Positions 38,510 to 59,865 of a stretch of DNA of 64,000 nucleotides are shown piece by piece (within the stretch, counting starts at the first letter, position 1; each line of letters starts with the position of its first letter). The stretch comes from Nereocystis luetkeana. Taxonomy: Eukaryota > Sar > Phaeophyceae > Laminariales > Laminariaceae. The stretch is from contig JARUPZ010000014.1 in the NCBI GenBank assembly GCA_031213475.1, forward strand, positions 8,011,491-8,075,490, read 5' to 3'. The notes beneath the pieces are model-generated. The model was not told where the DNA came from and did not search any database. It saw nothing but the letters and a program-made list of their open reading frames with translations. The translations under genes were made by a program, and so were the position numbers.

Positions 38510-40198
38510 CCCAAAGCGTGGTGGAATATAGCACGTGTTGGACCAACAGGTGCATACATTTTCGTATTTATATCCCTGGTGTACATATAGGATGTTACCG
38601 GCACAAATCGTACATACTACTCTACCTTGACGCTAGGTAGGTACTGGTATATGTCAAATATTTTCACAGCAAACACTCTGCGGTTTCGGTGTTGTATTAA
38701 CGACCCACACCGTCGTACCTCACTGGCCTCGTCTACTTTACACGAAGATATTCACTCCGCACCGCGCCGTTGGAAATGCACAAATCATTAAACGCACCGG
38801 ACAGCACCGTACGATTCGAACACCGACGATCCACAACGACCCGCTCCGTTGGGCCAGGGTATACAAAAATATATATTTTACAACGGAGAAGATAGGGTAC
38901 GTTAAAGATGGTAGCAGTTTCTGATGAACAACCTCGAATCACGTGGAACCGTGCAATACACAACAAACGAAAAAATTACAGTTTCGAGCTCGTCGCACAG
39001 CGGTACACCGCCGCGACGGACCGCACCGCATACAATGGCACCGCACTGCACTGCACCGTATGCTTCCAGAACTCGGAAAAGAAGCAGCCGCGCCGGAAAA
39101 TAATAATCTGACCTTTTGTCCGGTGTTACACCGACAAGATACTCCCGTGTACTTTCGACATTTTGTTTGTCACACCTCGTGCCTCGTACACCGTGCGTGT
39201 GTAATCAATCGTGACTGGTGCGTGCTCGACCATTAATATGACATCCTGTTTTTGATGGTCTCAGGTAGGCCGTACATTTACTTGGTTACTGGCGTGTGTA
39301 GTTATGTTTGCCGTACACATAGTGTGTACAGCGAAGGCCTGTCATTTTAGAAGTTATACTTACGATACAGAAACACCTGGTATGATACTTGTACTCAAAC
39401 TTGACGGGTCCTGTGTGTCGGATATCGACGGGTAAAAAGGACAGCATACACCTGTGGGTATAATAGTGAGGATGGATGAAAAGACAACTCGTGTACGCTC
39501 ACCACGAAAGAACTTAAGCTTTTGAGCCCACAGAGACTCTTTGCTGTGACGTCCGACAATCCGTCCAGGATGGTGAAGTCAACTGCATTCCTTGCAGGAG
39601 ACTGCACTCCCTCCTCCTTTGCGGTCTCAGCGCGTGCCCTCTCCTCAAACTCCTCAACTCTCTCCTGAAGATGGTGACATTTGACGTCAAGCTCCCGTCT
39701 CATGCCGTGTGCCTCCAACAGGTTTGCGCGAAGACATTTATTTGTTCTCGGCCTGGGCTCGCAGCAAACGTACAGAAGCCCCTTTGGCTTCGTCCTCCAT
39801 CTGCGAGCTACTCACCGAGGGGCTTGCATAGGGTGCGGGTCGCACTACAACACTAGTCACTGTGCATATCCCAGACCCTTCAAATGCTGCCGACAAGGTT
39901 GTCCGCGGTGAAGTGTGCCAAAGACATCCCGGGATCCTTCGTACTGCATGCCTCGCCATCTAGTCCAAGCCCGGTTAGCCATTTCTCTCGTTTGCTTTCT
40001 GGCACTCTCACAGTAGCTTCTCCACCGCTGGCCTGGCAGAATGGCAATCTACAGATGCAGCGATGCTTACTGCGGGGCATCGTACATAAACAAGCCCTTG
40101 TCGTTTGCTACTAGCTATTTGCTGCCCCATGCCAGACAAAAAGGATAATAATATACATGTCCGGAACTATTACATACAGTTGAAACGTGAAAAGTATA
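38510..40198. other. no firmly supported gene
   Basis: Mostly AT-leaning DNA, with GCACCGCA-type short repeats near 39,000-39,060. See the weak coiled-coil fragment at 39,395-39,815. Confidence 0.4.
39395..39815 (-). pseudogene. possible coiled-coil protein fragment
   Basis: On the minus strand MEDEAKGASVRLLRAQAEN is followed, after a stop and a frame change, by NLLEAHGMRRELDVKCHHLQ and VEEFEERARAETAKEEG, all typical coiled-coil composition. The frame runs to KSLCGLKS near a GTGAGC that could be a splice donor, and CGCAG just before the first Met could be an acceptor. It might be one exon of a decayed host gene. The family is unknown. Confidence 0.25.
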
Positions 40199-40203
40199 CC
40201 AAC

Positions 40204-40567
40204 TAATAGGTAAATCATGAATGGCGCTGTCGGCCCAGTTGACGGGGCTCTCAGAATAAAGGCAGGCGGCCTAGACGGGCCTGTTAGTTCATGTGTATTA
40301 TCGTGCACGTTGAGGAGAAGAAGAAGTAGTTCTCGAAGTAGTTGGGGAGGAAGTGGAAGGGGGCTCGGCGCGAGCCCATACCAACACGAAAAGGGAACCA
40401 CCTTGGTCAAGTGAAACCATAACTCAAAGCCGAATTCCCACACGTATCTCCCAATGTTCCCGCATTGTCCCGCCAGATCTCCGTACCAGATCCAAATCTC
40501 CGTACCAAATCTCCGAATAAGTACTACTGCTGTCACAAGGATAGTGATGTCATGAGTACATCTTTCA
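40204..40567 (-). repeat. LTR-364 3' LTR (intact)
   Basis: 364 bp, reading TGAAAGATGTACTCATGACA to TTTACCTATTA on the minus strand. It ends TA rather than CA. Flanked on the left by CCAAC. Confidence 0.87.
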
Positions 40568-41436
40568 CTCCCCCTACTCGTGCCATCACTTTCCGCTATC
40601 TCAATGCAATAACAGGAAAAAGTCCATAGTATATCCTCCGTGCAATACTCTTGATAAAATCATGCATTCTCACAACTACTATTATAGCCAACAGGCTAGA
40701 TACACCACAAAATACAATAGTCCGTAGACTAGATAAAGTGTAAACTCAAACTATAGCCTCAGCTAGATCCCCGATCACTTTTTATACGAGGTCAAACTTC
40801 TCAACACAACCTGTCTCTATCATATCGGTCATCCTCAAAAAAATCACAAACCACTCAATTCGAATTAGATATAATGTCGCCAAATAATGGGTGATCAATC
40901 CGTTATCGTCTCCATCAGTCTCAATTTCAAACACAAATTGTTCAATCATCAAACACACCCACAAAGCAACGCCAAGTTATCATACAGAGAAAATGTTCGG
41001 TCCAACACTCCTCTATATGTCTTTCCTTCTCTATGATCTCTTAATTCCTCCCCATAAAATCCACTATCGAGCACATACTACTGCAGTGTCCTCGACACAA
41101 GTTTCCGCCTCACGAATCCAAGTGAAATATCAAACATATAATTCCTCCTCACGAATATCATCACATAAAAATAGGAATCAAGAAATCCCCAAGACTCTGA
41201 AAACCAAACACGTTAGATACGGTGGCGAATACCGCACCAGCAATAATAATCAAATCATCACACAATTAAGTCGGAATCCAAAACGACATGGCACTACTTG
41301 CAATTAGATACCACAATTTCAAGACTCTTTATGATCCAAAATATCACCACAAAAACATGTTCAATCAGTCTTCCAACACACAGTAGTCCTTTCCAAAAAG
41401 AACACAGAAAACACTATCCCTCACGCCAAATATTCA

Positions 41437-41882
41437 TGACAATGCCCCTGTGGAATTCAAACGCCTCCCTGGTTAGTGCCTTTGTGAGAAAATCAGCATG
41501 CTGATACGCCGACGGCACTAGAATCACCTTGAACTCGTCCCTCTCCAACAATTCCTTCAGAAAGTGGTGGCGCACATCGATATGTTTAGAGTACGAGCTA
41601 GTGACAGGGTGTTGCGAGCAAGAGAAATAGCCCCCTCATTATCCTCAACAATATCACCACTGAAATTATAACCAAGTAGTACAATATCCCCCCTTCTATC
41701 TCGGTGGTCGAAAGCGTGACACGTATCTGCGTCCTCGAGTACCAGCACACGCAGGCACCTGCGCATGTGATAACTCCACCTGAGATGGGCTTCCTGTCCG
41801 TGGCTTGCCTGGTATCGCTCGCGTCAGCAAACGCTACCACCTCATAACCACTGCCTTTCTGAAAAGTAATACAGAAATCACT
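41437..41882 (-). pseudogene. Copia RNase H / Pol C-terminus relic
   Basis: Minus-strand frames give FQKGSGYEVVAFADA, SGGVITCAGACVCWYSRTQ, TLSTTE, then after a rearrangement VEDNEGAISLARN, and after another shift SKHIDVRHHFLKELLERDEF and HADFLTKAL. This is the same order as the RNase H end of Copia-1. Part of the domain after TLSTTE is missing and replaced by a GGGGGGATATTG-containing segment. It cannot encode an active enzyme. Confidence 0.88.
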
Positions 41883-41989
41883 CCAGAGTTACTAGTAACA
41901 TAATATCCCCCCAGTTTGAAGTACAATAACATTCATAGAAGTAATGCTATGTATCCCCGTACGTTTCTTCTCAATAATCAAGCTACCCT

Positions 41990-42345
41990 TCAGGGGTATC
42001 TAATACGAGGTACTGAGCTTTCGATGGAGAACTTCAGCCGCAGACACACAGCAGTATGGATAACGAAAACTTCACATAAAGTTTCACTGTTCGTCCTTCT
42101 TCTATAATTAATTGCATAAAATACAGATGCTTGTACCAGGTACATTTGGATATTATGGTGCTCCGCTGGCCGAGCAACGCAATAGAAAAACATCCAGCAT
42201 CAGGGTATATCTGCGGTCCGTGTCCAGTACAACGCCAACGCAACTCCACTCGGCACCAACTTTGCGCACTTGACTTCGATACCACATCCTTACCCGAATC
42301 CTCAGTCACTATTCGAATTATCCTGCGCTTATGATGCGTATAGAA
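41990..42345 (-). pseudogene. gag-like relic shared with 24.4-24.8 kb
   Basis: Homologous to the plus strand at 24,440-24,690, including the peptide VARPAEHHNIQMYLVQASV. It lacks ~36 bp present in the other copy. It lies between the gag-like and pol relics of LTR-364. Confidence 0.45.
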
Positions 42346-42417
42346 TGCCAAAAGGAACAATGAAGAATCACCAGACCTACTCGTATGTCACGTACACGTA
42401 AAGAAAGCACACAAGCG

Positions 42418-42984
42418 CTAATCATCGTGACCTACAGCAAAGCAGTAAATAGCGCTTCGCATCCCGAGAATTGGGAGTAGGCCAACGAAACCTGTATTAA
42501 TCTGGTGCAAAAGAAGCGAAGCCTTCTCCACCCCAGTTCCAGCGCCCTCCAGCGTCCGTGTCCATGTTCGCCCCACAACCACCTTGCTGCTCCACTCTCC
42601 TTCATGGCCTTTTCCTGCGTTAGCCCCTCGCATCATTGCTCGGGCCAGCTGGTGTGCCAGACCTTGTCCACCGGATGTCAGCCGCGGTTCACCTCGTGCA
42701 TTCGCTGCCGATGACTCTGCTCGCGTGTCTGCCTCGTGTGGTAAGCCTGCGTTGGCCCCGAGCGTCATTGCTCGGCCCAGCTGTTGTGCCAGATCTTGTC
42801 CATCGGATGTCAACCGCGGTTCATCTCGTGCATGCGCTGCCGATGACTCTTCTCGCGTGTCCGCCCCGTGTAGGAAGCCTGACGCAGGAATGTCGGACCG
42901 CGCTGACGCGGCTGCCTCCTGCTGCTCTTGTTCCTTTTCATGTTGTACATTGAGAAGCTTCGCCTCCGCTGCTTCCCTGGCCAA
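42418..42984 (-). pseudogene. gag-like frame with internal duplication
   Basis: This is the first sizeable sense frame after the LTR-364 5' LTR. It begins with a coiled-coil (AREAAEAKLLNVQHEKEQEQQ) and then has two ~44-residue copies of a unit of the form ADTR-ESSAA-AR-EPRLTS-GQ-LA-QL-RAM. The position suggests a Gag remnant, and no zinc knuckle is present. The likely original start lies upstream, beyond an in-frame stop. Confidence 0.45.
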
Positions 42985-43143
42985 GTGCGCCTCCCTGATC
43001 TACTGCTGTGCCGAGGAGGGAATGGCGTCCCATCGCGCATACTAAGGGGAGAAGTCTTATGTAGAAGACATGTATCACTGCCAACCGCCAAACTCAGGCT
43101 GTAGTTTCGCACAACACTCACCCACGATCACGAGACACTAGTG

Positions 43144-43494
43144 TAATAGGTAAATCATGAATGGTGCTGTCGGCCCAGTTGACGGGGCTCTCAGAATGAA
43201 GGCAGGCGGCCTAGACCGGCCTGTTAGTTCATGTGTATTATCGTGCACGTTGAGGAGAAGAAGAAGTAGTTCTCGAAGTAGTTGGGGAGGAAGTGGAAGG
43301 GGGCTCGGCGCGAGCCCATACCAACACGAAAAGGGAACCACCTTGGTCAAGTGAAACCATAACTCAAAGCCAAATTCCCACACGTATCTCCCAATATTCC
43401 CGCATTGTCCCGCCAGATCTCCGTACCAGATCCAAATCTCCGTACCAAATCTCCGAATAAGTACTACTGCTGTCACAAGGATAGTGATGTCATG
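43144..43494 (-). repeat. LTR-364 5' LTR, larger part
   Basis: Matches 40,204-40,554 with five differences noted. It is cut at GTCAT-G, where YR-2 begins. The missing end is at 58,566-58,578. Confidence 0.87.
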
Positions 43495-43705
43495 CAGAGT
43501 ATTCTCGGAAGAAAGAGAGAATGTGAGTTTTGTACGTACGTAAGTATGTAGCCAATCAGAGGAATGCGATGTTTCACGGTAGCATGAATCGTAGCCCTTG
43601 GTACATACACCTTGTCTGGTACGTAGCCGCAGCCTACACGCAACAGCGCAGTGAAGCAGAGGCAACGCTACAGGTTCAAGGTGTGATACAGACTAGTTTG
43701 AGTTC
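43494..43705 (+). repeat. YR-2 split repeat A1
   Basis: Matches 57,685-57,897 with small indels near 43,540. Its start contains ATTCTC...GAGAAT, a short inverted pair. Confidence 0.88.
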
Positions 43706-43708
43706 GGG

Positions 43709-45229
43709 ATGTCCGACGAGAGCAAGTCGCCGGAGGCCGGTGCCAACGCGGGTACTGCGGCACGAGGTGTGCAGGTTGCGTTGTTTGCTGCGCAAACACA
43801 AGCCGAGGCGAATGCTCATGCTGCTGTAGCTGCTGTGCAAGCGGAGGTCGACGCACGCCGTGCCGGACGAGCCGAAGCCGAGGCTCGCCAGGCCACCGAC
43901 GCTGCTGTGGCCTCTCGCCAGGCCAACGATGCTGCTGCTACTGCTGCTGCGACTGCTACTCCTGCTGCTACGGCTAGTCCACCATCTATGTCGGCAGCCT
44001 CGGGGGGAGTGGTATCGACAGCTGACGTGCGGCATTGGCAAAACCAGGTGTTCTCCGAGTTTTCCCGCATGGATACGGAGATCCTCGGCGTCAAGTCATC
44101 TCTGGACAACGTGCTCCTGTCTGTTGCGAGCCTTCGGGACGCCGTCGCCGGCGGCGCATCCAAGACCGCCGACGTCGAGGTCCTGATTCAGCAGTTTGTG
44201 GACAACTTTGCCGACCGTGAGCCTTCCGTGCGAGACGGCGGGGGTGCGAGGGAGCGGCACGTCCTGAAATCACAGTTGACTGACGACACGGCCCTTTGAA
44301 AGCAAATTTCGTCACTCAAACACTGGCTGCTTCGGCGACGCTTGCCTCCGAACCTCGGCGAGTCGGCCGCAGATATTCAGTCATTTGTGGGTGAGAGCGT
44401 CGACGTTACGGCGGGGGTGGCGGCTCCGCTTCGCGCTGTCAGCAACTTTGACGTGAGCATTTATGGGCCACGTGCCGACCACCCTGTCGACCACCTGGTG
44501 TTTGTCGCTGACCGCCTGGACCCCTTGCGCCAGGCTCTTATGGCGGTTCTTGCAGTTGGACTCTCGGCTGACGTCGCCGACGACCGCGCGTGCCTGGACC
44601 GGCTGGCACCCGTCGACGTCTTGTTCACATCCGCGGCGGCCGGTCTTCGCCGGCATACTCTAAGCAACATCCTTTTGCTTTCCGGCTCCGCGGCGCGGGC
44701 TGTTATGAGCGACATGGCAAACGACGACCTGCGCCTGTGGGTGAACGACCTCATGAGGTTGGCCCAGCAAGTTCGTCCGTTGACTGTTCCCCCTCAGTTC
44801 AACGCCGTGTCTGACGCGCCGCCTGTCCCAGCGTTTGGTGGTACACGCAACTTTTGCTCGTCCGGTGGCGACGTCCTGAAGCTCGTGGAAGGTCTCCAAG
44901 TTCCACGCGACAGCAGGGATGGGACACCCAAGCGGGGCCGAAGCCTCGCCCCTGCCAAGACGGGTCCGGCCAGAAAGAAGAGCGCCGCGCTGTGCAGGAT
45001 GTTCGCTTCCACGGGCCTATGCCGGTATTCAGACTGCAAGTTCGTGCATGCGAATACCCCGGCCAACTCTTCCTCTCCTGCACCTCTTCTCGGCGGCGGA
45101 TCGGCGGCTCCAGCTGGGGGAACGCGAGGTGGAGCGGCGGCGCAAGCTAGCGGGACGCGGGCTCTGGTGCTCCGCCCAGATAATGGTCGCGGGGGGGGCG
45201 GGGGTGGTGGTGGATCGGGTTCGGGATGA
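43709..45229 (+). pseudogene. YR-2 Gag-like protein with CCCH finger
   Basis: The frame starts at ATG 43,709, three bases after repeat A1, and is interrupted by an in-frame TGA at 44,297. Beyond it the same frame stays open to 45,229. The N-terminal part is alanine-rich and coiled-coil-like (AQTQAEANAHAAV, EAEARQATDAAVASRQANDA). A finger of the form C-x8-C-x4-C-x3-H (CRMFASTGLCRYSDCKFVH) lies at 44,992-45,050, followed by a glycine-rich tail, as in YR-1. Apart from the finger and layout there is little residue identity with YR-1 Gag. Confidence 0.8.
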
Positions 45230-45747
45230 AGACACGGGCCCTTCCTGTCGGTTGGACCAACACCTGGGGGGGCGGCGGCGGTGCGGGCCGGTGGCGGAGC
45301 GGCGACGGCGCACGTCGCCAGTTGTGGAACGGGCACTCGGCCGGCCACCCGCGAAGGAGCGGGGGGGTTGCGTAGGCGTGCGTTAGGAGCTCTGGCTGGC
45401 GATGGCGGCGTCGGGCGTGATCACGTCGCTGTGACTCCGGGTTCGGTTCCCTTCTCAGAGGAAGGTACGGGTGTGGGCGTGCGTGCGAGTTATTCGCCAG
45501 TTGACACGGCGTACGTGCAAGGTGCGGTCGGCGACGTGCGTCTGGATGCGTTGCGAGTAGATGAGGTAGATGCGTGGCTTGCCGCTCGGGAGGTAGTGGT
45601 GCAAGCGGTGTCTGCGCGAGGCTCAGCGAGCCTCGATCAGGTCGCGTCACTCAGCTCCTCACTCTTGCGACAGTGTCAAGGCAGTGTAAGGCAGTGTTCA
45701 CCTTTTTCTGTCCACCATCGGCTCCTCAATTTTCTCTCCGCATATTA

Positions 45748-47721
45748 ACGTTGCTGTCGTACAGCACTGGTTTGGTGAGATCAAGAAATTCCCTCGTATT
45801 TCTTTGTTGCTTCGTGTGCTGGCGCCGGGCGCGCCTGTCGGCGTCGCACGGGGGGGGGATTTGACCACAGAACTCGCGTATGGTAATCACCCGGTCGTCG
45901 CCACGCATGCGGGGGATATCCACAATAAGATATGCGCCGACCTGGTGCACGGCCGAGCGGTGGTGTTTGATTTGCGATATGCAGACGAGATTCAGGGTGT
46001 TCGCCTTTCACCGCTGAGTGTCGTTCTCGAACCCAAATTAAGGATTATTCACGATCTTACGTTTGCGCGCGAGGGCGGTCGGACTAGCGTTAATGGTGAC
46101 ACTGACTTTGACTCCGCACCATCGTGCGAGCTCGGCCATGTGCTTCGTGATGTGCTGTTACGGGTGCTGTTTTTGCGACAGACGCATGGTAGTCGCGCTC
46201 GAATCCTGTTGTGCCGTGTGGATGTCAAAGACGCTTTTCGGCAGGTTTTGGTTGATTCGGCAGGCGCGCCGAATTTTGGATACGTTTTCGGTGATCACGT
46301 TGTTGCGCTTGCAGTTTGGTTGGCGCAATAGTCCTGGGTTTTGGGGGTTAATGGCATCTGCGCTCGAGCATGCTCATACCCACTCTAACTTTCAAGGCGC
46401 AGACGTTTTACAACAAGGGGCTGCCGCCGTTGCGCACGTTGAACTCTCCCCGCCGCGGGGAGTTCGGGTCGTTGATATCCCGCGTGATTGTGGGCCCGTT
46501 CCTGGTTCAGGGGGCAACACCGGGAGCAATTGTTTTGCGAGGTACTACGTGGACGATGGCATTCTTGCCGAGTTGCAATGGTGGCCGGACGGCCGCCGTT
46601 GCTTGCGTGCTGTACAGTCACTGGCGTCGGACAACTTTCGCTTGTTGGGCGAACGTGGTGTTTCCGATCCGCCCCTCCTGTCAGCCAAGGAAATTACTAA
46701 TTGGGACACGTAACTGGAAGTTTGGGGATGGATCATTGATACTGAGGCGCTTACGGTCACGTTGCCGCCCCATAAGCGCCTCAAGCTGCACAATATCCTC
46801 AAGGAGTGGCCCTCGTCTCGTGCATCTGCTTCTGCGAAGCAGGTGTCGCAGCTCGTTGGCTTTCTCATGCATATTTCCTTTGCTGTACGTCCGGGGCGTT
46901 TTTTCGTTAACCGCTTGTTAGCTTCAGTTGGTATGCCGCGCATTGCCGCCGGAGCTAATTTTTATTGCCGTATAGCAAACCCCGGGCGGCGTCTCGCCCT
47001 GGGACCCGAGTTCCATGGTGACCTCGAGTTCTGGCGGGGGTTCGTTGAGGAAATGTGGGACGCGCGCGGAGGAACCTTATCGGCTCCGATGTATAATTTG
47101 CTTGAGCGCCCCCCTAGACGTACTCTTTTTTTGGACGCATCTAAAACCGCTGTCGGGGTTTTTTGCTTGGAAACTGGGGTGTATTGGCGATACGAGCTTG
47201 ACGCAGGAGAGCGGTCTCGATTTTGTGGATCGAGTAAGTCCGTTGCAGATGAGAACGATATATCAATTAACGTTCTAGAATTGCTGGGCATGGTAGTTTC
47301 TGCATGAGTTATCGTATCTGCGTGTGATGAACGTCCGTTCGCCATGGGGGACTGTGTGTTGTTACGTGGCGACAACGAATCAGCCGTCAAGTGGGTGCGG
47401 CGTTGTCGAGGGAGAAAGGAGCCGAGATCTGGCGCATTAATGCGTCTCCTCGGGGAGCTCGAGTTGTCCTCTGGTTGGCACTTCGACGCAAAACACGTAC
47501 GTGGAATTTTTAACGTGGCCGCTGATGGTATCTCACGGTGGGATTGTGCCTCCGTCCTCGTTAATTTGCGTGCTGTTCGACCCGACATTCCGTGGCAGGA
47601 GCAGGACCTGGGGGGTGCGGGTACATCCCTCTGTACTTCGGTGTTGGCCTCGAACTCATGCGAAACGCCATTGCGACCTCGTCTGAACGCACTTATCAGG
47701 GGCATTTTGGCGCATTGGTAG
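45748..47721 (+). pseudogene. YR-2 reverse transcriptase / RNase H
   Basis: Homologous to YR-1 along its length: HWFGEIKKFPRI, RIIHDLTF, RVDVKDAFRQ, FGWRNSPGFW, YYVDDGILAE, LFLDASKTAVGVFCLETG, LRGDNESAVKW and AKHVRGIFNVAADGISRWD. Breaks are a one-base frame change near 46,305 (frame 3 to frame 1), TAA at 46,711 where YR-1 has Arg (WHTRLEV), and TGA at 47,305 where YR-1 has Trp. Catalytic YVDD and RNase H residues remain visible. The start is uncertain; a frame at 45,281-45,748 may be a decayed N-terminal extension. Confidence 0.9.
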
Positions 47722-48647
47722 ACTTTCGGGTACGTTGTGACATGCCTGTATTCCTAGAGCGTGGCGGAGACAGCATGACTAACGTGTGGCATTTGTTCGA
47801 GTACGTAGCGTACGCCTTTGCCACTAAGAAATTGCGGTCGGCAACTATCGAGAGCCATTTGTCAGCGATCAAGTATTTCCATCGAATTTCACGAGGGTTC
47901 GAACTGGACACTACCCATCGTGTTTTGGGTAATGCCCTCAAAGGAGCCGCTCGTTCGCATGCCGACGCTGGTAACCAAGCAACCGTTCGTCGGCCTGTTT
48001 CGTGAGAAATGTTGATCGCGGGCGAAAAATTGATCTCCACATGGCAGACGGGGGGTCGTGTCTTGTGGCTTGCCCTCTGCGCTTCCTTTTGTTTTTTGAC
48101 TCGGGCGTCAGAAGTGTTTGCGGAAACTCGGTCGCGTGTGCATGAAACTTATTGCTTGCGACGGGCTGATGTAGCGTTTTTTCGCGAGAATATTCAGCTT
48201 ACCGCGTCGCAGTGGTCTGCTGCCGACCGCGTTGAGGTTAGGTTTCGTGGGTCGAAAGGGGACCAACTGCGGAAAGGATCGGTTTTGACGCGCGTACGTT
48301 GTGGTCCGGCGTTGCGCGTGGGCGACGGTGGCGGTGCTGTCGATCTCATGATCGAATTGATGTCTTGCTATTTGTTTCTTCCCTCGTCGGCCCCACTTGC
48401 CGCTTTTGGTGTTGGTAATGGCAGATTGTCCATGTGGACACAGCAGCAAGCGGCGACAGCTCTGCGAAAAATGGTTGCGTTGGCGGGCGTGCGTGCGGAG
48501 GAGTACACTTTGCACTCTCTGAGGATTGGAGGCGCAACTCACTTGTCGGCGGCGGGGGCAACACCAGAGGTGTTGCAGCGTCAGGGCCGATGGGCGTCCG
48601 ATGCGTACAAGACGTATGTTCACAGTCATGGAAAGGATGCCAGTTAA
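47592..48647 (+). pseudogene. YR-2 tyrosine recombinase
   Basis: The frame overlaps the end of the polymerase frame, as in YR-1. It is broken by TGA at 48,006, just before EMLIAGEKLISTW (YR-1 has FGMLLAGETLIPTW). Catalytic residues remain: Arg in LTRASEVFA, HSLR in LHSLRIGGATHL, Trp in QGRWASDAY and Tyr in KTYVHS. It ends 165 bp before the LTR-542 insertion. Confidence 0.9.
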
Positions 48648-48814
48648 GTAGCCGACGTGATGGCCCAGGAAGGAATTAGCGGTGGGATTCAGCCGGGCCA
48701 GGGCATAGAGTGGGGGCGGGTTAACTCACTCTTAGATTTGACTAGGCAGAAGTGAAACTATGAAGAAGTGTGTTATTACATGCGTTCCCTATGATATTGC
48801 AAGTCAGGGGGAAA

Positions 48815-49355
48815 TGTTACAGCTGCCTCCTCCTGTGTACCGCTATCGGCTCGGTCTCACCTCGATAGCCAGCTGTTGTCGTTCGTTGAGAGAGTCCTTC
48901 TGGGGGTTTCCTCCTTTCCTCGGTCCTGAATCCTCTCTGGCCACGGGGTGGCCAGACGCCACGCGGGTTGAGTGTTGGTATTACTCAGCAGGTGCGACGC
49001 GTGGTTAACAGACAGGCACGTGATAGGCGATAATCATGCACGGTGTGTGAACAGGATATGGTTTGACTTGTTTCTTTCGTTCTTTGGTGGGATTGACTAA
49101 CCCCAGGTAGGGCCAGAGAGCACCCGCATCGACCATTACAGCCGATACGGGGTTTCCATGACCCAGACAATGGCCTCCCCCGCCGGGGACACTCCATTGT
49201 ATACCTACATCGATATGACAGCGAGCCATCCTACGGCTTTATCGCTGCCTTACACGATGCACCCTCCGTGCGTCACTGGTCAGGTCAGTCAACGTACATC
49301 ACAGAATACCCTGTCGCCCACCTGGGCGACTCCTGAAGCCCGTAGCGCTGCAACA
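48815..49355 (-). repeat. LTR-542 left LTR (3' LTR if minus)
   Basis: Starts TGTTACAGCTGCC and ends GCGCTGCAACA on the plus strand. Identical by eye to the right copy. Confidence 0.9.
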
Positions 49356-49367
49356 CCCCCCCTGCCC
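49356..49367 (-). other. LTR-542 polypurine tract
   Basis: On the minus strand GGGCAGGGGGG abuts the LTR. It resembles the Copia-1 tract GAGCAGGGGGGA. Confidence 0.6.
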
Positions 49368-49540
49368 GACGCATAACTATCGTCGGTGCACAGCGGGTAT
49401 CCCGGCCACTACCCGGTAACAGCGTGGGCAACTCCTCCTCCATATCCCCGACGAACCGGCTGCCGCGTCCTTCCTTATCCATTCGACGATTAACGAGCTT
49501 CGGCCACGTACGGACATCCCCGATGCTCGTGACGAGGCTC

Positions 49541-50341
49541 CTACGCCTTCCGCTTTTCCTTCTGACGGTCGCTGCTGCTGTTTCGGCTTCTGCGGCGGCT
49601 GCAGTTGCTGCTGCTGCTGATGATGACACAGTTGCTGCGCCTGACGCTGTTCCACCTCTTCCTCCTTCTCCTGCTGGGCCGGCCGTTTGCGCTCCCTCCG
49701 CGGCGGCGGAGGTGGTGGACCTGATTGCCCCCCCGTCCTGCCGGTTCCCGTTGCCGTGCTCGGTTGCTGCTACTGCGGTTGCGCTCCTGCGTGGCACTCC
49801 TGCTACGGCGGTGGTGGCAGCTACGGCGGTCACGACTGCGACTGCGGCTCCGTGCATCTAACTTGAAAATGGTACAATGCTTTAGCATCCTTTGCCGCTT
49901 ATGTAACGGGGTACACACAAACCTACCCGACCCCTGATCCGGCGTCCTCTCATAGACGCTTGATAGCTCAGACCGGGCTGCTCGACGGAAGTGATTCGCT
50001 ACCCCCCGGTCCAATGCTCGTGCGCCCGATTCGCGTGGATGCGTTCCCTTCCGCGTTTGCTGGCCGCCTCCTTGATCAAGACCCTGTTGACCCCCAGCTT
50101 CTGCTCTCCCGAGGAACTCCTCTGAGTTGCCGCGTCGTCCCGCGCTCTTCTGGGGCTCTTTTTCCCCTGCCGTCTCTTGAGTATCCCTCTCAGCCTCCAG
50201 AACATCTGCTGCCTCTCCGCCAAGAAATTGGACGAATTCACATTCGAGCCTCATGTGGTTCGGCCGCTCATGGAAGACCTTGAGTTTGGCTGCCAATACC
50301 CCAACACCAGCTGTGCAATCGAGGATTTCGTCGAAACTCAT
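49541..50341 (-). CDS. unrecognised Arg/Ser-rich frame inside LTR-542
   Basis: 266 residues, starting at ATG (MSFDEILDCTAGVGVLAAKL), with open frame extending a little upstream (FHTELAK). The first 70 residues look like a folded, possibly helical domain (PNHMRLECEFVQFLGGEAADVLEAE). The rest turns into Arg/Ser- and Gln-rich low complexity (DARSRSRSRDRRS). It is in the sense direction of LTR-542, close to its 3' LTR. It could be an accessory or captured gene, or composition-driven openness. No family recognised. Confidence 0.3.
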   Translation of the reverse strand: MSFDEILDCTAGVGVLAAKLKVFHERPNHMRLECEFVQFLGGEAADVLEAERDTQETAGEKEPQKSAGRRGNSEEFLGRAEAGGQQGLDQGGGQQTRKGTHPRESGARALDRGVANHFRRAARSELSSVYERTPDQGSGRFVCTPLHKRQRMLKHCTIFKLDARSRSRSRDRRSCHHRRSRSATQERNRSSSNRARQREPAGRGGNQVHHLRRRGGSANGRPSRRRRKRWNSVRRSNCVIISSSSNCSRRRSRNSSSDRQKEKRKA

Positions 50342-50409
50342 CTTTGCAAGCTCTGTGTGAAACTTCGCTCGGGAACGTTTGGTGCACCCCTAGTGTGGTC
50401 TTTTGAAGA

Positions 50410-50870
50410 TACTGACGTTTGACTCCAAGAAAGTAAGTCGTTTGAAGGTTCAGAAGTTCACGCCACCCCCTCAAGTACTGACGTGACTCCGAGTAAGCAG
50501 ATCGGTTGAGGGCCCTGACATTCACGCCACGTTAGAAGGTACTGACGTGACTCCGAGTAAGTAAGTCGTTTGAAGGCACTGACGCGCCTCCGAGTAAGTA
50601 AGTCGTTTGAAGGCACTGACGTTCACGCCACGTTTGAAGGTACTGACATGACTCCGAGTAAGTAAGTCGTTTGAGGGCACTGACGTTCACGCCACCTTCA
50701 CTGACGTGCCTCCGAGTAAGTAAGTCGTTTGAAGGCACTGACGCGCCTCCGAGTAAGTAAGTCGTTTAAGGCACTGACGTTCACGCCACGTTTGAAGGTA
50801 CTGACATGACTCCGAGTAACTAAGTCGTTTGAAGGCACTGACGTTCACGCCACCTTCACGCGACCCCCCC
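50410..50870. repeat. minisatellite (TCCGAGTAAGTAAGTCGTTTGAAGG-type)
   Basis: At least seven irregular units combine CTCCGAGTAAGTAAGTCG, TTTGAAGGCACTGACG and TTCACGCCACGTTTGAAGG blocks. Some units are short (~37 bp) and some long (~64 bp). It lies inside LTR-542. Confidence 0.85.
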
Positions 50871-50908
50871 AGCCCGAACAGTGTCCACTGGTGAGACCCT
50901 TTCGTTCT

Positions 50909-51128
50909 AAAACTAATTCATGAGTCCTCAAACGTCATTCATCCACCACCACTTCAAGATCGTAACCCTTGTATAACGGTTTTCGTGAAAGTAGTTGTAG
51001 AAAGGTGGTGACAAACACAAAACTAATTCATGAGTCCTCAAACGTCATTCATCCACCACCACTTCAAGATCGTAACCCTTGTATAACGGTTTTCGTGAAA
51101 GTAGTTGTAGAAAGGTGGTGACAAACAC
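50909..51128. repeat. perfect 110-bp tandem duplication
   Basis: Two identical units begin AAAACTAATTCATGAG and end GGTGACAAACAC. No difference is visible, so the duplication is recent or conserved. Confidence 0.93.
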
Positions 51129-52271
51129 CCCCCCAGCACGGAAACTACCTACTGCTTATTGGCATCCCAATCCCACCTTTCGCTTCGTGTTTCCAACACT
51201 GGGCCACTAATCTTGGAGAGTCAAATAGGAAGGTATCCTGCTCGGTTACACCATGCCTACATCATGTTTTCCAGCATTAGTCATGCAATCTAGAATTCCT
51301 ACAACCGTTCTTTTCCGATCAGGCGGATCGCTCGATTCTTGGAGACGGACGACACAACAGGTGCGTGGTACGCCCAACCACTTCACGATCGCGTTCGCAA
51401 ATGAAGGGAACCTTTAGTTTGGGCATTGGGCATATGTGGCCTCGCCTTCATAGAACTGCCCTCCCCATGCGGGGACGAAGCACTTGAAAATTAGGGTCAA
51501 CCTTATGTGCATGTACAGCAGTGCAGTACTCAAACGGTGAAGATGCCCAATCGTCATTGGGAACCATGTCAAATACTTGAACAAAGTCAAGCTCGTTTGA
51601 TTCTCCGTTCACTGCGTCAGCGACTAAGACGGCGCGTGAGTATGCGCGCTGGGGAGGGGCTTTGTTTTCCTATCGGAAACTACCAGGTTTTCTCTCCTCA
51701 GTTTGATTTGCCTTGTGTATCTCGTATCCACTGCTTAGGATGCATGTATTTGCTCTGGAAGAGCAGACACCCTTGCTACAGGCAAAGCGCTCCGGATAGA
51801 GGCCAGCGCTCCGAGGTCTTTTCAGTACGAATGTAAAACAAACGCCTGTTTTCACGGTTTTCAAATATTCGTGCATGATACTATCAAGTAACTGTTCACG
51901 CATCCCCCAGTATTCGGGCGCTGTGATCACGGGATTGCAACTATTTATGTGTGTGATCCCCGATTCGGTGACACAAACTGCTGTGTCGACATCCTGGTAG
52001 TCGATAATCTAGTGCCGGGTGGTTTGTAACTACCTGTACTAATATGCCCGGTGCCACTAGGTTGATAGGTTTTATTTATTCGTTGGTGTCGCACTGCTAT
52101 ATCTCTCTGCTCTTGGACGGAATGCGTGCGTCGTGCCTGCCGTATCCAGTGTGATGTGATACCAGCTCGGTATGCTGAATAAAGTTAATATACATACTTT
52201 ACAGCAGTCGGGATGAACAAGGTAATGCGGCCGTATGTGTTCGACCCGTACTCTGCACGTATTGCGTATGT

Positions 52272-52400
52272 GTTCTTCATCTTACACCATTCTTTCTACC
52301 CGTCGACATCCAGCACAACCAGTGTCCGTGCCCTTTATTTGATCCTAGAGAGAGATTTTTCCTGTGGTCACAAACTACACCACAGTCATCACAACATACG
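52272..52400 (-). repeat. LINE 3'-end relic
   Basis: GTGTTCTTCAT, TTTCTACCCGTCGACATCC, AGTGTCCGTGCC and CTGTGGTCACAAA follow in the order of the LINE tail. No coding part. Confidence 0.65.
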
Positions 52401-52910
52401 TGGATTTCTAGTAAGTTCCATGTTTGCCAGCCGACAATGCACGTTGTTGTCCAGGGGTTCATCGTTCTAAAGGGTGGTTATTTACGCCCAAACGGCGTAA
52501 GGCTCGACCTTGTTAGTTTCCGTTATCACCTAACCGAGCAACCGGTCCACGAGAGCATGCGTGTATTAGTACGTACGGCACCTTTGGCTTGTATCGACAC
52601 CTGTCGGTTGCATTTGGTTTTGAAGACATTATGTGGTCAATCGCATGCAGACATTTATTAACGAACATGCATGTGTGTGCGATCATGAAAAACGAGCGAA
52701 CATACGAGCACGAGCAACAGGCAAACGGAGCACGAGCAACGAGTATGCCTGCATGCATTGACCAGACAAGCATCTTCAAAGCCTTACGAAACAACAGGCA
52801 GAGCACCATCGGCAGCGTGAATACATAACAGCATATCACACGAATCACCCTCCTACAAGGCAGGCAACCCCGAAAACATGTGGATATATGCATATAACGA
52901 GTATCCCATA

Positions 52911-53192
52911 ACATAGTATGCAAGATGGAACGTGGGATTATAGAAAGAACACGATCACCTCATATCACAGTTTTGCAAACATTCCCATCGCCCGGGTTGT
53001 CCGTTCTTATTTCCTATAATTGACGGACTAATTATGTGCGCGGAAGCTAGAACATAGTATGCAAAATAGAGCTTGGGATTATACAAAGAGCACGATCACC
53101 TCATATCACAGTTTTGCAAACGTTCCCATCGCCTGGGTTCTCCGTTCTTCTTTCTTATAATTGACGGACTAATTATGTGCGCGAAAGCTAAT
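52911..53192. repeat. 141-bp tandem duplication, diverged
   Basis: Units beginning ACATAGTATGCAA at 52,911 and 53,052 share CACGATCACCTCATATCAC and TAATTGACGGACTAATTATG and differ at roughly one base in twelve. Confidence 0.85.
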
Positions 53193-53634
53193 GAGTATGG
53201 TTGTTTCCTATGGCCACGTACCGGGTCAAAAGACCAGGGAAAGCCAGTGAAATGCCAACGTACCGGGTGTGAAGACCCGAACGGGTGAAACAAGTGGAAT
53301 TCCAGCGTATCGGGTACTTGGAGACCATAACAACCCGCTATGACTCTCGTTGTGTGCCCTCAGTTGTTTCAACATAGCTTTCATCTACCCCCGAATAGTA
53401 ACATGCCGTACACTGCACAGCTGAACAGCTTCCCAACAACGTTACTTTGCTCCGGTAGTAGGGGACACTCATCCCGTACGTGTGTAGGGATGTGTGGGGC
53501 CAAAGTTAAACGTCTCCACGCTTGTGAAAGAAAGAGGAGCGATGGACCCAAGGATCTAGAGAGCTTTTGCCGTGCGACCTTCAGTCCCATGAACGGTCAT
53601 ATTGATAGTGGTATGAATACTGTATACCTGGTAT

Positions 53635-54224
53635 ACTGTGGATACATCCTCCACGTATGATATGTGGCCTTCGACTAAAACTCGTCATTTCTACCGAGCT
53701 TCATCACCGTAGTATGCCCCGTATGAATCCCAGATACCTGGTACTCGTGTGCATACGGTGTGTGTGGTACATCCTGATATGTCGCTTTTCAACGCGTTAT
53801 CATGACTCGAAAAGATGGGAAGAGAGATGTACGAAATGGTCCCTAAGGATTTTGCCATACGGCCTACCAGGTACCTGGTACAGTTTTACGGGAGTGTGTA
53901 GTATTATATATAGCCCATAAACGCCCTTTATTGATGTTGTCAAAAGCATACATACTGCGAGCCACCCCCCCTGTATGCTTAACCGTGTATCAAGAGCTCA
54001 CCCTGTTCGGGGTAGAAAAAAAAAAAAAAAAAAAAACTCCAGGTACAGAGTAGAGCAGTAGTAGTAGGAGTATGGTTTCCTATCTTTTGTCCACATTACA
54101 TGTACTATCGTTGATATTCATATTATTAGTCGTGTACGTAAGGTAATGCAACTCGTCGTATAATATACCCTGGTATACCATCTTCTCATCTTTTTGAGCA
54201 TCGTGTGAAACTGCGTACCAGGTA
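53635..54224. repeat. cluster of TACCAGGTA / TACCTGGTA words
   Basis: Six exact 9-mers at 53,635, 53,735, 53,865, 53,872, 54,216 and 54,224-adjacent context (the last counted once), including the perfect palindrome TACCAGGTACCTGGTA at 53,865-53,880. TATACCCTGGTATACCA at about 54,164 is a further near match. Confidence 0.75.
54015..54037 (+). repeat. poly-A run
   Basis: About 23 consecutive A after GGGGTAG. It could be a retroposon tail but has no recognisable body. Confidence 0.9.
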
Positions 54225-54672
54225 GTGTATAGACTACTGATGGTATTGTAGACGGGGATGCGGCTTTTCTGTGTAATTTTCAAGTTGAGGCGCCTTTGCT
54301 CCAGGCAGCTATTACTCAGTGCTCGGGGCATGGTAGGTTATCGGTTCCTGCGTACAACTTCAAACTTAGAACCATCTACGGAAAGCGCTCCTCCCGCAAC
54401 GATATTCAAAAGTACTCCCTGTTTCGATACCAGCAGCGAGGTATACTTCAACAAACAGCAGTTACATGTGACATGTGACCACGAAAATACTGCTGTCGCT
54501 CAGGTTGGGCTGATTATTAGAGTTGTACGCATACGTATTGCCATGGTCGTCTAAATGAATACAGCCGACCCCCCCCATTTTTTTCCTCGAGGAGTACCGC
54601 ACAGCAAGAAAAAAAACCGGCCGCACCAAAAAAACACAGACGAGATGTGCGGGGCCGAAAACAAAAAAAATC

Positions 54673-54750
54673 GAGAGTGACGCCTGAGGCGGAGAACGGC
54701 CGCAAAAAAACGAGAGTTACACCTGAGGCGAAGGCCGGCTGCAAACAATC
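54673..54750. repeat. ~39-bp duplication
   Basis: CGAGAGTGACGCCTGAGGCG and CGAGAGTTACACCTGAGGCG begin two adjacent units, each followed by GGCCG-type text and A runs. Confidence 0.7.
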
Positions 54751-54902
54751 GTCAAGGCGTGCGCGGGAACAAAAAACAAATCGAGGGTCAGGACGGAGAG
54801 ATTCGTGGCCTTCTTTTTTTTTGGTGCTGCCTTATCGCGAGTATGCGATGGTGGCTACCTGTCGTGACTACTGTTTCCTGATACGTTATGCATGGTTACT
54901 GC

Positions 54903-54941
54903 TATTTTTTTTTTTTTGTTTTTTTTTTTTTTTTTTTATTT
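54903..54941 (+). repeat. poly-T tract
   Basis: Nearly pure T interrupted by single G and A. Confidence 0.9.
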
Positions 54942-55132
54942 TGTTTTTCCATCCCATTCATTATCTTCGCACATCTTCTTCTCTGTCTCCTTCCAACTCG
55001 TAACTCAGATCCGGGGTCACATAGCAGGCTCTTCTCCCCCCTTCCCGCTACGGTACGTGCCTTCATTTTTATCGCGAGAAGATTTCAGCCTTTTTCTTTC
55101 CCTCGTCGACTCGCATCGAATTGTGCCTACCC

Positions 55133-56374
55133 AGATGCATAGTCGAAGACCTTAGGGAGTTCCGAGCCACCGAAGGGTCAACGGAAGTTGCCCCCTTGGT
55201 GTTTGGAGTTGAGACCGCGTTGTGGTCCACAGCAGCCAAAAAGGCGGGGAAGTGGTACCGGGGGATCCTTGAAGCAGCCGAACGGTTCATGGTGAGGTGG
55301 CACGAGGCTGAGGCTGAGATGAGTAGACAGCGCCGCGCATCCGCCGTGGATGGTGCCCAAAGGAACGGGGGGGGAGGGGGCAACAGGAGAAGTGGCATAA
55401 AGCCCGACCGAGTGAATGCGGAGAGGGGGGGGAACAGGAGGGGTAGAAGGGAAACGGCGGTAGACGAAAGTAGGAAGGAGATGGCAGACAGGGTAGCAAG
55501 GCACCAAGTCGACTAGGAAGTAGAATATGACCATACTACTAGTGCTACCAACTGGTGCAGCTGGCTCGAACGTGGTCTTCCCTTGTCTTCTCTTTTAGTT
55601 GCGCTGACTCTCCGTGATTTTCATTTCATTTTTTCTCTTCCTCTTCCTTTTCTGATTGATAAGCCGTACTCAAGGAGCCGTGTGGCGTGGTTGGAAGACG
55701 AACCTGCTCTGCTCGGCTCGTATTGTCTGACGCCAAGGGGCTGGGCATAGTTGACGAACGCAGGGCGGAGACGGCAGTCTGGGTAGCAAGGTACCAGGCG
55801 GATTAGCAGGGAGAACCTGGCTATACTACTCGTACCACAAGCTGCTGCCGCCACCTAGAAGGTGCTTTGGGCTTTGGTCTGCCTGTTATTTCCCCTTTGT
55901 TATTTTTCCTTGTTACTTTCTCCTTGGTTCTTTGTCTTACTCTGTTCACAAGCAGTGGTGTCTTTTGTTATTTCTTCTTTTTTCCAGCTCGTTCTTTTTC
56001 AAGTGTAGGCCACCTCGCCTGCGGGGGGGGGGGCACGACAGATTGTTTCTCTTAGATTTTGCTTTCATTTTTCTTCTTTTTCTTTTTCGACTTGTCTACC
56101 TTGTTTTGTTTTCTCTTTGATTGTTTCTTTTCGTTTCACTATTTCATAGATTGCGTATGTCGTGCCTGTCGTATCTAGTATGATGACATGGCTTTGCATT
56201 GCCCACTGCAGTTCACACTGCACACGTGGCAACGTAGTATCTCTGTGGCGTAGCTTTGTGACCACAGAACTTGTATCTCTTCTAGGATGGAAGAATCGGC
56301 ACGGACACTGGTTGTGCTGGATGTCGACGGGTAGAAAGAACGGTTTAATGTGAAGAACACACACACACACACAC
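55133..56374 (+). mobile_element. 5'-truncated LINE copy
   Basis: A near-perfect inverted copy of 59,866-61,090. It starts inside the last ~125 codons of the LINE protein (VEDLREFRATEG to RVARHQVD, stop at 55,516), continues through the whole 3' UTR and ends in an (AC)n tail (about 56,357-56,374). Loss of the 5' end with an intact 3' end is the mark of target-primed reverse transcription. Target duplications were not identified. It lies inside LTR-542. Confidence 0.9.
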
Positions 56375-56427
56375 GCTGCAAGGCGCTCTCAACAATTGAA
56401 TCCCTTTTTTTATTTTTGCAAATAAAG

Positions 56428-56510
56428 TCAAAGTCCGACCCTCCTAGGGCTCGAACCCAGGACTCAAACAAGTAGAATTCGAGGTTAACCACTTGAACCA
56501 CCGGGGCGAC
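56428..56510 (-). ncRNA. tRNA-like element (pseudo-tRNA or SINE head)
   Basis: On the minus strand TGGTTCAAGTGG resembles a polymerase III A box, and GGTTCGAGCCC is a good B box about 35 nt later. A T arm (CTGGG-TTCGAGC-CCTAG) and an anticodon arm (CGAAT-TCTACTT-GTTTG) can form, with TAC at the anticodon place. The acceptor stem pairs poorly and position 33 is C, so a working tRNA is unlikely. A tRNA-derived SINE start or a tRNA pseudogene fits better. Confidence 0.5.
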
Positions 56511-56599
56511 AACAGCAGTAGTGCTACCCGAATACGAAGTATATGTACTCTATCGTAGTTTTTACGTGTATCCCTCGCCGCTGGTACCCATCAGACTCC

Positions 56600-56810
56600 A
56601 TCATCCCGGACAGAACTCGGGGCTCGACACTTGGCCACCCATCAGATTCCATCCCGGAAAAGCTCGGGCAGAGACACTGATCCCACCCAAGGAAAACTCG
56701 GGCCCCGATGTTTGGGCCTCATTCCGCCCAGGAGGACTCTCGGGCCCAGTTATTCGGGCCCTCGTTCCGCCCGGGAGAAAACTCGGGCCCAGGTGCTCGG
56801 GGCCGAACAA
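56600..56810. repeat. GC-rich minisatellite
   Basis: Three to four units of ~60 bp with ACTCGGGCCC and TTCCGCCC(A/G)GGAG cores, adjacent to the right LTR of LTR-542. Confidence 0.7.
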
Positions 56811-56903
56811 ATTCCCTGGGTACGGATCTCTCGTGTCCCCGCCAGAGCTCATGACCTTGCGCTCCAATCTCCCCCTCTCTCTGTCATCGGCCTGGGTTCA
56901 TCA

Positions 56904-57444
56904 TGTTACAGCTGCCTCCTCCTGTGTACCGCTATCGGCTCGGTCTCACCTCGATAGCCAGCTGTTGTCGTTCGTTGAGAGAGTCCTTCTGGGGGTTTCC
57001 TCCTTTCCTCGGTCCTGAATCCTCTCTGGCCACGGGGTGGCCAGACGCCACGCGGGTTGAGTGTTGGTATTACTCAGCAGGTGCGACGCGTGGTTAACAG
57101 ACAGGCACGTGATAGGCGATAATCATGCACGGTGTGTGAACAGGATATGGTTTGACTTGTTTCTTTCGTTCTTTGGTGGGATTGACTAACCCCAGGTAGG
57201 GCCAGAGAGCACCCGCATCGACCATTACAGCCGATACGGGGTTTCCATGACCCAGACAATGGCCTCCCCCGCCGGGGACACTCCATTGTATACCTACATC
57301 GATATGACAGCGAGCCATCCTACGGCTTTATCGCTGCCTTACACGATGCACCCTCCGTGCGTCACTGGTCAGGTCAGTCAACGTACATCACAGAATACCC
57401 TGTCGCCCACCTGGGCGACTCCTGAAGCCCGTAGCGCTGCAACA
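56904..57444 (-). repeat. LTR-542 right LTR (5' LTR if minus)
   Basis: 541 bp, identical by eye to 48,815-49,355 and followed by the GAAA target duplication. Confidence 0.9.
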
Positions 57445-57503
57445 GAAAGGGGTCGTGAGAGTACATCCGTAACTAAAAGGGTCGACTCCCATTTGGGTCG
57501 ATG

Positions 57504-57692
57504 GAAGCTGGCGTCGAGAGTTCTATGCCGCCAGTTGGGTTGGGAGTTGACTCGAGTATACGGATGTTAGCGTGGGGTTGCTGTTGGGGCAGCCCCGGGG
57601 GATCACCCCTTCTCCAAGCCCCCTTCTCCGGGCGGGGGGTTGCGCATTAATATAAAACAACTAACTTCGAGAGCAAAGTACAAAGCAGAGTA
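57504..57692 (+). repeat. YR-2 split repeat B1
   Basis: Starts GAAGCTGGCGTCGAG and ends AAGCAGAGTA. It overlaps A2 by the shared octamer GCAGAGTA. Confidence 0.87.
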
Positions 57693-57897
57693 TTCTCGGA
57701 AGAATGAGAGAATGTGAGTTTTGTACGTACATAAGAAGTTTATTCAATCAGATGAATGCGATGTTTCACGGTAGCATGAATCGTAGCCCTTGGTACATAC
57801 ACCTTGTCTGGTACGTAGCCGCAGCCTACACGCAACAGCGCAGTGAAGCAGAGGCAACGCTACAGGTTCAAGGTGTGATACAGACTAGTTTGAGTTC
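57685..57897 (+). repeat. YR-2 split repeat A2
   Basis: Partner of 43,494-43,705, ending GACTAGTTTGAGTTC. Confidence 0.88.
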
Positions 57898-58384
57898 CCA
57901 CCCACCCGCCCGTGCTTTTTTTGAGGGAGTCAGAGGGGGGGGAGTTAAATGGTCGCAGTGACTTGTGTGTTTGTTGCTGTTTGTTTGACGTACCCGTTAT
58001 GTTCGCTGATTGTGCGACCGGGTGTCGTAGATTGCGCAAGTGGCGGCGGGGGCTAGTCGCATTGTTTGGCGTTTGTTTGTTCGATGCAAGTGGGATATCT
58101 TTTTATCATAATATGATGGTGTTTTTTTTTTCATATCATGATATGAGAGTGATAAAAACGTGGTGGTGCATTCGCTCGGATTTGCGCGCAATCTGAAAGT
58201 TTAGGAGAAGGGGGTTATCCGCATATTAACACTGAAGTGCATTGTGAGTTAAATGCATTTGTGTTATTTGTGTATGCCTGGTACGAGTTGTGTGTAGATT
58301 TATATGCACATGGTCGTGAGGTTACCATGTACCTGGTATGTTTTCTCGAGTTATGTGTCAGGAACTGTTTGTCTGACTGGCGTT
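57898..58384. other. YR-2 A2-B2 spacer
   Basis: 487 bp without a gene. Contains an imperfect AT hairpin (TTTTATCA at 58,101 with TGATAAAA at 58,150) around a poly-T loop, and one TACCTGGTA (58,330). Confidence 0.6.
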
Positions 58385-58569
58385 GAAGCTGGCGTCGAGA
58401 GTTCTATGCCGCCAGTTGTGTTGGGAGTTGACTCGAGTATACGGATGTTAGCGTGGGGTTGCTGTTGGGGCAGCCCCGCGGGATCACCCCTTCTCCAACC
58501 CCCCTTCTCCGGGCGGGGGGTTGCGCATATATATATTACAACTTCGAAAGCAAAGTACAAAGCAGAGTA
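58385..58569 (+). repeat. YR-2 split repeat B2 (right end)
   Basis: Matches B1 with several substitutions and indels and ends GCAGAGTA, followed by CATCTTTCA of the interrupted LTR-364. Confidence 0.87.
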
Positions 58570-58583
58570 CATCTTTCACCAAC

Positions 58584-59488
58584 CTCAACTTATATTTTCG
58601 GCCATAGGGAATATTTGGGAAAGTTTTCCATAATGCTTGTCGGGATGCTTGCTGAAGGGGGCGGTTGGTTGAGTAGATGGGAGAAATCAACACCTGCAGC
58701 AGTGGCACACACGTTGGGTTTTGTTCTATAGCAGCTGGAGCCCTGGAGGAAATACTTGCCACAGAAGGAAGTTCGCTTGGTCCGCCACATCGAGTGCCAT
58801 TTCAATACACGTCACGAGTCAGAGCACGATCGTACCGACAGGTGTGTACTGTGAATGCTCGTATTTCTTTCCACACGAGAGATGCGGCACCTTGTCTTGC
58901 AGCGGTAGTAGTCCAGGCTGAGCGTCGTGGACGATGCGCTACAAGCTGTGCTGCTGCCCTCGTCCTCGTGTTGACCGGCGACAGATCACGTGATGCCGCG
59001 AAGGTACTGGTAGCTTATCTGGACTAAGTACTGGCCTCACGTGGGGCCGTAGCACGTCGATGTCTAACGGCGCCATCTCGCACGGACTTGCAAACGACCC
59101 CAACTTACAGTTTACTATATTTGTGTATTGTTTATCGCTACAGCAGTAGCAGACAACGACTGTCAGACTCCAGGTGCAAGACGCAAGATGTCTACTGCTG
59201 TAGGGTGGTGAGGATGATATGACGGTGTCAGCCAGGCAGGCATGTGACGTAGTGAGTCCCTGTTGGCATTGTCTACTTGTAAAGCGGTTGTCGAAGAGGT
59301 AACGGGACTGCGAACTTGGGAGAGGACTCTCGATCGTGCAAAGAAAATACAAGAAAAAAACACGAATAAAAAATACCGTATGTATCGAAAAATCACCCTT
59401 TTGCACACTGAAATACCATCAAAATCGCCCCCCCCCCCACACGCTTTTTTTTTTACCAGTGCTATTGCAAGTGGTCTATTTACTCTGT
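58584..59488. other. no gene seen
   Basis: Right flank of LTR-364. Short frames only. Confidence 0.45.
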
Positions 59489-59797: not shown

Positions 59798-59865
59798 TGA
59801 TGTTCTAATACGTATTTCATTTGTTTTTGTGACGTATTTCATTCATAGTAGCATATGTGTGTGGT

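Follow-up and report, generated by a model that had tools for sequence, protein, structure and literature searches.

The 64,000-nucleotide stretch of the Nereocystis luetkeana genome that we analysed (C14:8011491-8075490, hereafter the window) contains a nest of mobile elements. A long terminal repeat (LTR) element, LTR-364, lies within an older repeat that encodes a transposase; the right LTR of LTR-364 is split by a tyrosine recombinase (YR) retrotransposon, YR-2, which is split in turn by a second LTR element, LTR-542. Within LTR-542 is an insertion resembling a short interspersed element (SINE), and this is interrupted by a 5′-truncated copy of a long interspersed element (LINE). We are highly confident that these are six stacked layers, and hold with the same confidence that several different kinds of mobile element inserted serially, in fixed order, by ordinary transposition. 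The original prediction, made from the window alone, had described four levels, with LTR-364, YR-2, LTR-542 and the LINE placed one inside the other. Those layers proved to be real, but the SINE-like layer and the transposase-bearing outer layer had been missed, and the nest is deeper than proposed.

LTR-364, YR-2 and LTR-542

The genome searched was the 465,085,209-base assembly of 1987 contigs, and domains were assigned by Pfam profiles applied to open reading frames (ORFs). An uninterrupted counterpart of every interrupted layer is present in this same genome; the check suggested with the original prediction, namely whether the flanks are continuous where the outer element occurs elsewhere, gave a positive answer layer by layer. 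For LTR-364, which extends from 40204 to 58578 (Table 1), we compared six complete relatives (L033-L038) and a seventh, which is the host of a nest on contig C9 (L039, L042). The right LTR is continuous across the point of YR-2 insertion in all seven (L033-L038 and L042), and each of the six complete relatives has its own exact 5-bp target duplication. The YR-2 sample comprised the element ends at 10 of the 39 other listed matches, and in 10/10 of these relatives position 48814 runs straight into 57449 with one GAAA. For LTR-542, 12 other copies were taken from 40 scored matches (726 candidates), chosen for both LTRs within 10 kb, and each of the 12 is flanked by an exact 4-bp duplication of its own. 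As had been proposed, then, LTR-364 with its CCAAC duplication is split by YR-2, YR-2 is split by LTR-542 with its GAAA duplication, and the order LTR-364, YR-2, LTR-542 is established by junctions and empty sites together. Chance repeats were rejected as an explanation because the independent copies carry exact target duplications of their own.

The assembly was also searched, at up to 2 mismatches, for four junctions (LTR-542/YR-2, YR-2/LTR-364, LINE/SINE and SINE/LTR-542), each of which has exactly one exact place. The LTR-542/YR-2 and YR-2/LTR-364 junctions were found at one place even at up to 2 mismatches, as was LINE/SINE, the control for which had no hits. The SINE/LTR-542 junction gave a second hit, with 2 mismatches, on C40; its control pattern also gave one. 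These results bear on the possibility that the nest is an assembly artefact in which similar repeats were wrongly joined. All of the parts are multi-copy, as such an explanation would have it, but the two LTR elements have kept matched duplications, every junction coincides with an element end, the four junctions are single-place, and the outer flanks match a paralogous locus that is empty and has a single CCAAC. We consider an artefact extremely improbable.

Among the relatives of LTR-364, L033 and L035 match the window copy collinearly from end to end, and L036 does so except for a gap from 41953 to 42353; L034, L037 and L038 are 8-kb copies that share only both end regions with it. A 1603-amino acid (aa) ORF of L037 matched rve (integrase; E=3.1e-9) and, below the curated cut-off, Retrotran_gag_2 (E=7.5e-5); reverse transcriptase (RT) was absent among the Pfam matches of this ORF. 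From the LTRs, the 5-bp duplication, and the Copia-type gag and integrase of the longer relative L037, we read LTR-364 as a short non-autonomous relative of a Copia family.

YR-2 has split direct repeats, arranged A1..B1-A2-B2, downstream of its recombinase gene. The recombinase matched PF00589 (E=1.1e-5) at 25.7 bits, slightly below the cut-off of 27.1. No Pfam match was obtained for the presumed RT/ribonuclease H (RNase H) fragments of YR-2, a weak RVT_1 match (E=0.0013, under the cut-off) being confined to YR-1, the second YR element of the window. Pfam detected no methyltransferase domain, the absence of which would set Ngaro apart from DIRS/PAT, in the YR ORFs scanned, whose frames are broken. 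As is generally the case for YR elements, no target duplication was seen at the YR-2 ends. The gag-like ORFs of YR-2 (44342-45229) and YR-1 (29488-31041) gave weak matches to the CCCH zinc finger, below the Pfam cut-offs. YR-2 differs from the Ngaro and PAT elements described in the available portion of PMC4157794 by this gag-like ORF with its weak CCCH finger, and its A1/A2 and B1/B2 pairs are not identical, whereas identical repeats are described there. Ectocarpus has Ngaro and PAT-like families, according to the available part of PMC12477816.

The LTRs of LTR-542 measure 541 bp rather than the predicted 542; they show no differences and have ends of the TG..CA type (TGTTACAG..GCAACA). The LTR pair is likewise free of substitutions in 9 of the 12 other copies. 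Because its two LTRs are identical, the arrival of LTR-542 appears to be recent. Pfam gave no gag-pol match in the three ORFs scanned (window 49285-49857 and 49541-50341, and L024 775-1344, all on the minus strand), and we therefore call the element non-autonomous. The analysis brings out a non-coding LTR family. Two of its copies, L026 and L032, contain a third, internal LTR, whole in L026 and partial in L032. A 731-bp part of the interior (52531-53261) is missing from L021 and L028, so that the family has two interior forms. LTR-542 is inserted into a SINE-like copy at L025 and into a LINE copy at L028, and the interior of the L025 element also has a LINE copy at a different site.

A second nest, at C9:8259528-8284552 (L039-L042), consists of an LTR-364 element with ends of the 8-kb type, an LTR-542 element within it (GCGA duplication) and, innermost, an element of about 9 kb. 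The 9-kb stretch has ORFs of 592 and 782 aa.

Table 1. Features of the nest, from the outermost to the innermost layer (window positions)
Feature	Layer	Position	Strand	Remark
Outer repeat, left part	0	35078..40203		LTR-364 target; low-copy repeat with DDE_Tnp_4/HTH_Tnp_4 transposase
Transposase region, two reading frames	0	37365..38632	-	PF13613 and PF13359
Outer repeat, right part	0	58584..59479		Ends ...GGTCTAT at 59479, a common edge in other loci
CCAAC target duplication, left	1	40199..40203		Single CCAAC in L063 empty site
CCAAC target duplication, right	1	58579..58583		
LTR-364 left LTR, 364 bp	1	40204..40567	-	
LTR-364 interior, taken as non-autonomous	1	40568..43143	-	Collinear with L033 and L035; ends common to 8-kb copies
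LTR-364 right LTR, first 351 bp	1	43144..43494	-	Last base shared with YR-2 end
LTR-364 right LTR, last 14 bp	1	about 58565..58578	-	Uninterrupted in 7/7 relatives
YR-2, tyrosine recombinase retrotransposon	2	43495..58564	+	About 6.4 kb without insert; ends ambiguous by 1-2 bases
YR-2 repeat A1	2	43494..43705	+	
YR-2 gag-like region	2	43709..45229	+	In-frame stop near 44299; weak CCCH zinc finger
YR-2 presumed RT/RNase H	2	45804..47307	+	Frames broken; named by position and by eye
YR-2 tyrosine recombinase ORF	2	48009..48647	+	PF00589
YR-2 repeat B1	2	57504..57692	+	
YR-2 repeat A2	2	57685..57897	+	
YR-2 repeat B2	2	58385..58569	+	
GAAA target duplication, left	3	48811..48814		Single GAAA in 10/10 YR-2 relatives
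GAAA target duplication, right	3	57445..57448		
LTR-542 first LTR, 541 bp	3	48815..49355		
LTR-542 interior	3	49356..56903		No Pfam domain in minus-strand ORFs tested
LTR-542 second LTR, 541 bp	3	56904..57444		Identical to first
SINE-like element, head	4	56375..56510	-	tRNA-like A and B boxes by eye
SINE-like element, body and poly(A) tail	4	54906..55132	-	
5′-truncated LINE copy	5	55133..56374	+	(CA)n end; innermost

The SINE-like element and the LINE

In 11 of the 12 other LTR-542 copies, position 54905 is directly joined to about 56511; the twelfth, L023, has a deletion across the site and is uninformative. The insertion in LTR-542 therefore spans 54906-56510 (1605 bp), which is more than the LINE. 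Read on the minus strand, the pieces flanking the LINE together make up a single short element, in which a tRNA-like head is followed by a body and a poly(A) tail. SINE-like insertions with both parts were found elsewhere at L001, L004, L007 and L025/L017, the last being a single insertion in two overlapping loci (weak partial matches at L012 and L019 are outside the count), and the LINE is absent from all four; the empty LINE site in L025 reads GTGCCTACCCACGCTGCAAGG. All five SINE-like insertions, the one in the window included, have A-rich tails. The LINE, which had been placed in LTR-542, is thus within the span of that element but lies directly inside the SINE-like element. The A and B boxes of the head were judged by eye against the consensus, and neither ARAGORN nor Rfam gave a match for its tRNA identity. 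The analysis brings out this SINE-like family in the genome. The copy at L004 contains a hairpin of about 100 bases (2371-2467), probably a small inverted-repeat insertion; Rfam microRNA matches to the hairpin are far under the curated scores.

The nested LINE is 98.5% identical over 1242 columns to a longer neighbouring copy on the other strand (59867-61090). The longer copy matched RVT_1 (E=2.1e-35), and the nested one corresponds only to its end part, that is, it is truncated at the 5′ end. The LINE had been predicted to be the last arrival unless LTR-542 carried it in. Joint arrival of the inner three layers could be envisioned, with the SINE-like element and the LINE carried inside LTR-542 when it transposed; the identical LTRs indicate a recent arrival, and the source copy may since have disappeared or may not be represented in the assembly. 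However, the site is empty in 11 of the 12 other copies, and both the SINE/LTR-542 and the LINE/SINE junction match the assembly exactly at a single place. For these reasons the LINE almost certainly inserted last, carriage by LTR-542 is unlikely, and we give joint arrival of the three layers very little credence.

The outer repeat

Within the target of LTR-364, HTH_Tnp_4 (PF13613, E=1.4e-6) was matched at 37742-38632 and DDE_Tnp_4 (PF13359, E=2.8e-22) at 37365-37793. At L063 (C1:6564300-6566700), the sequence corresponding to 38099-40203 runs continuously into the right part of this repeat, with a single CCAAC and without the nest; the empty site reads ...AAAGTATACCAACCTCAACTT.... Compared with the window, L063 has a substitution divergence of 3.95% on the left (2076 columns) and 4.1% on the right (314 columns). 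The repeat is uninterrupted in both of the fetched loci that have both flanks (L063 and L064, on C39), and adjacent listed matches at C39:853689-854710 and C1:8205313-8206783 suggest two further copies without the nest. L065 and L066 have the right part only, from 58614, and 35078-38198 is collinear in L068. The longer LINE mentioned above extends over 59480-63850 on the minus strand and has a duplicated 3′ tail, which starts within a few bases of the repeat edge at 59479; at L069, a LINE tail begins at a distance of about 20 bases from this edge.

We think that the outer repeat is probably a large DNA transposon. It encodes an HTH_Tnp_4/DDE_Tnp_4 transposase, five loci (the window, L067, L069, L070 and L071) share its outer edge at 59479 to within 3 bases, and at C1 and C5 there are inverted copies of it separated by 17-21 kb. 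Alternatively, it might be a segmental duplication that contains an old transposase gene, in which case the order of the other layers would be unaffected. The copy number is low, the left flank being matched by five loci with the window included, and inspection by eye of the sequence adjoining the inverted copies at C1 and C5 revealed no matching target duplication. The transposase, the shared edge and the inverted copies argue against a segmental duplication, which we doubt but regard as a serious possibility. A KDZ identity of the outer repeat was also considered; no KDZ family member was detected in the genome, but none was detected in 14/14 controls either, and this result is uninformative.

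YR-1 (26740-35082) has split repeats that are 99.7% (A1/A2) and 100% (B1/B2) identical. In the C1 paralog of the outer repeat, 25881 is joined to 35078; this locus thus lacks 25882-35077, which comprises YR-1 and an adjacent 0.9 kb.

Order of insertion and divergence of paired repeats

The order of the layers and their empty sites were shown from the sequence; the modes of integration we infer from the class of each element. In a first step, LTR-364, as a Copia-type non-autonomous element, would have inserted into the older DDE_Tnp_4-bearing repeat, duplicating CCAAC. YR-2, which is Ngaro-like, would then have entered the right LTR of LTR-364, 14 bp from its end, by recombination and without a target duplication. 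LTR-542, in which no coding domain was found, would have followed, inserting into YR-2 downstream of the recombinase gene and duplicating GAAA. The poly(A)-tailed SINE-like element would next have been copied into LTR-542, and the 5′-truncated LINE, finally, into the SINE-like element. The nest places several element families of a single genome in an unambiguous relative chronology, and every layer has its empty site.

Some observations weigh against this scheme. The C9 copy of LTR-364 has a duplication with one mismatch (AAACG/AGACG). The SINE-like copy in the window lacks a target duplication, the empty site being GCTATAAACAGC as compared with GCTAT[..]AACAGC, and no target duplication of the LINE could be distinguished from its CA tail. 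Lastly, the paired repeats of YR-2 differ by more substitutions (15/393, 3.8%, A and B repeats together, plus 1-bp and 4-bp indels) than those of the older LTR-364 (5/364, 1.4%; Fisher p=0.042), which is the reverse of what nesting predicts.

The LTRs of LTR-542, with 0/541 substitutions, differ from both (15/393 vs 0/541, p=2e-6; 5/364 vs 0/541, p=0.010). Several of the YR-2 differences are clustered, and the Fisher test may be too generous because clustered differences may represent fewer events. Nearly all of them are private to the window copy; few or no differences were found within the A pair in eight YR-2 relatives and within the B pair in seven. YR-2 is necessarily younger than LTR-364 yet appears older, and repeat divergence is therefore no clean clock. 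The suggestion that the insertions can be dated holds for their order but not for ages drawn from repeat divergence, and the nest cautions against dating elements by their paired repeats. That the inversion violates the order was rejected, since the junctions are decisive and such inversions are reported in a survey of 4126 nested pairs. In the available part of that survey, about a quarter of nested elements show greater divergence than the element that hosts them, which is also the case for YR-2, and gene conversion is proposed (PMC7251063). Another hypothesis, which we offer tentatively and think unlikely, is that the split repeats of YR elements keep time unlike LTRs, with the nest as a natural control; either YR replication would produce repeats that are patchy and imperfectly templated, or homogenisation would have affected the older LTR pair.

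The nest is a clean, well-preserved example of a known phenomenon that is common in large genomes, and its parts are of known kinds. Nesting is described as common in the accessible sections of PMC6911290, and studies of plant LTR retrotransposons, as far as their available portions go, analysed 1491 and 4126 nested pairs, in which the same insertion of element into element fixes relative age (PMC6911290, PMC7251063). The pairs in those sections are of LTR elements, whereas here LTR elements, a YR element, a SINE-like element, a LINE and a transposase-bearing repeat are stacked. The available part of a report on Ectocarpus (PMC12477816) describes giant transposase-bearing DNA transposons that, like the outer repeat, accumulate unrelated nested elements; the elements nested in those transposons are described as mostly fixed across multiple copies, whereas the present nest is absent from the other copies examined. 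The set of elements in this genome (Copia, YR elements, LINEs and transposase-bearing repeats) resembles that in the same report. A further LTR element of the window, at 13684-20535, has 258-bp direct repeats, 96% identical, around long ORFs that appear Copia-like by eye.

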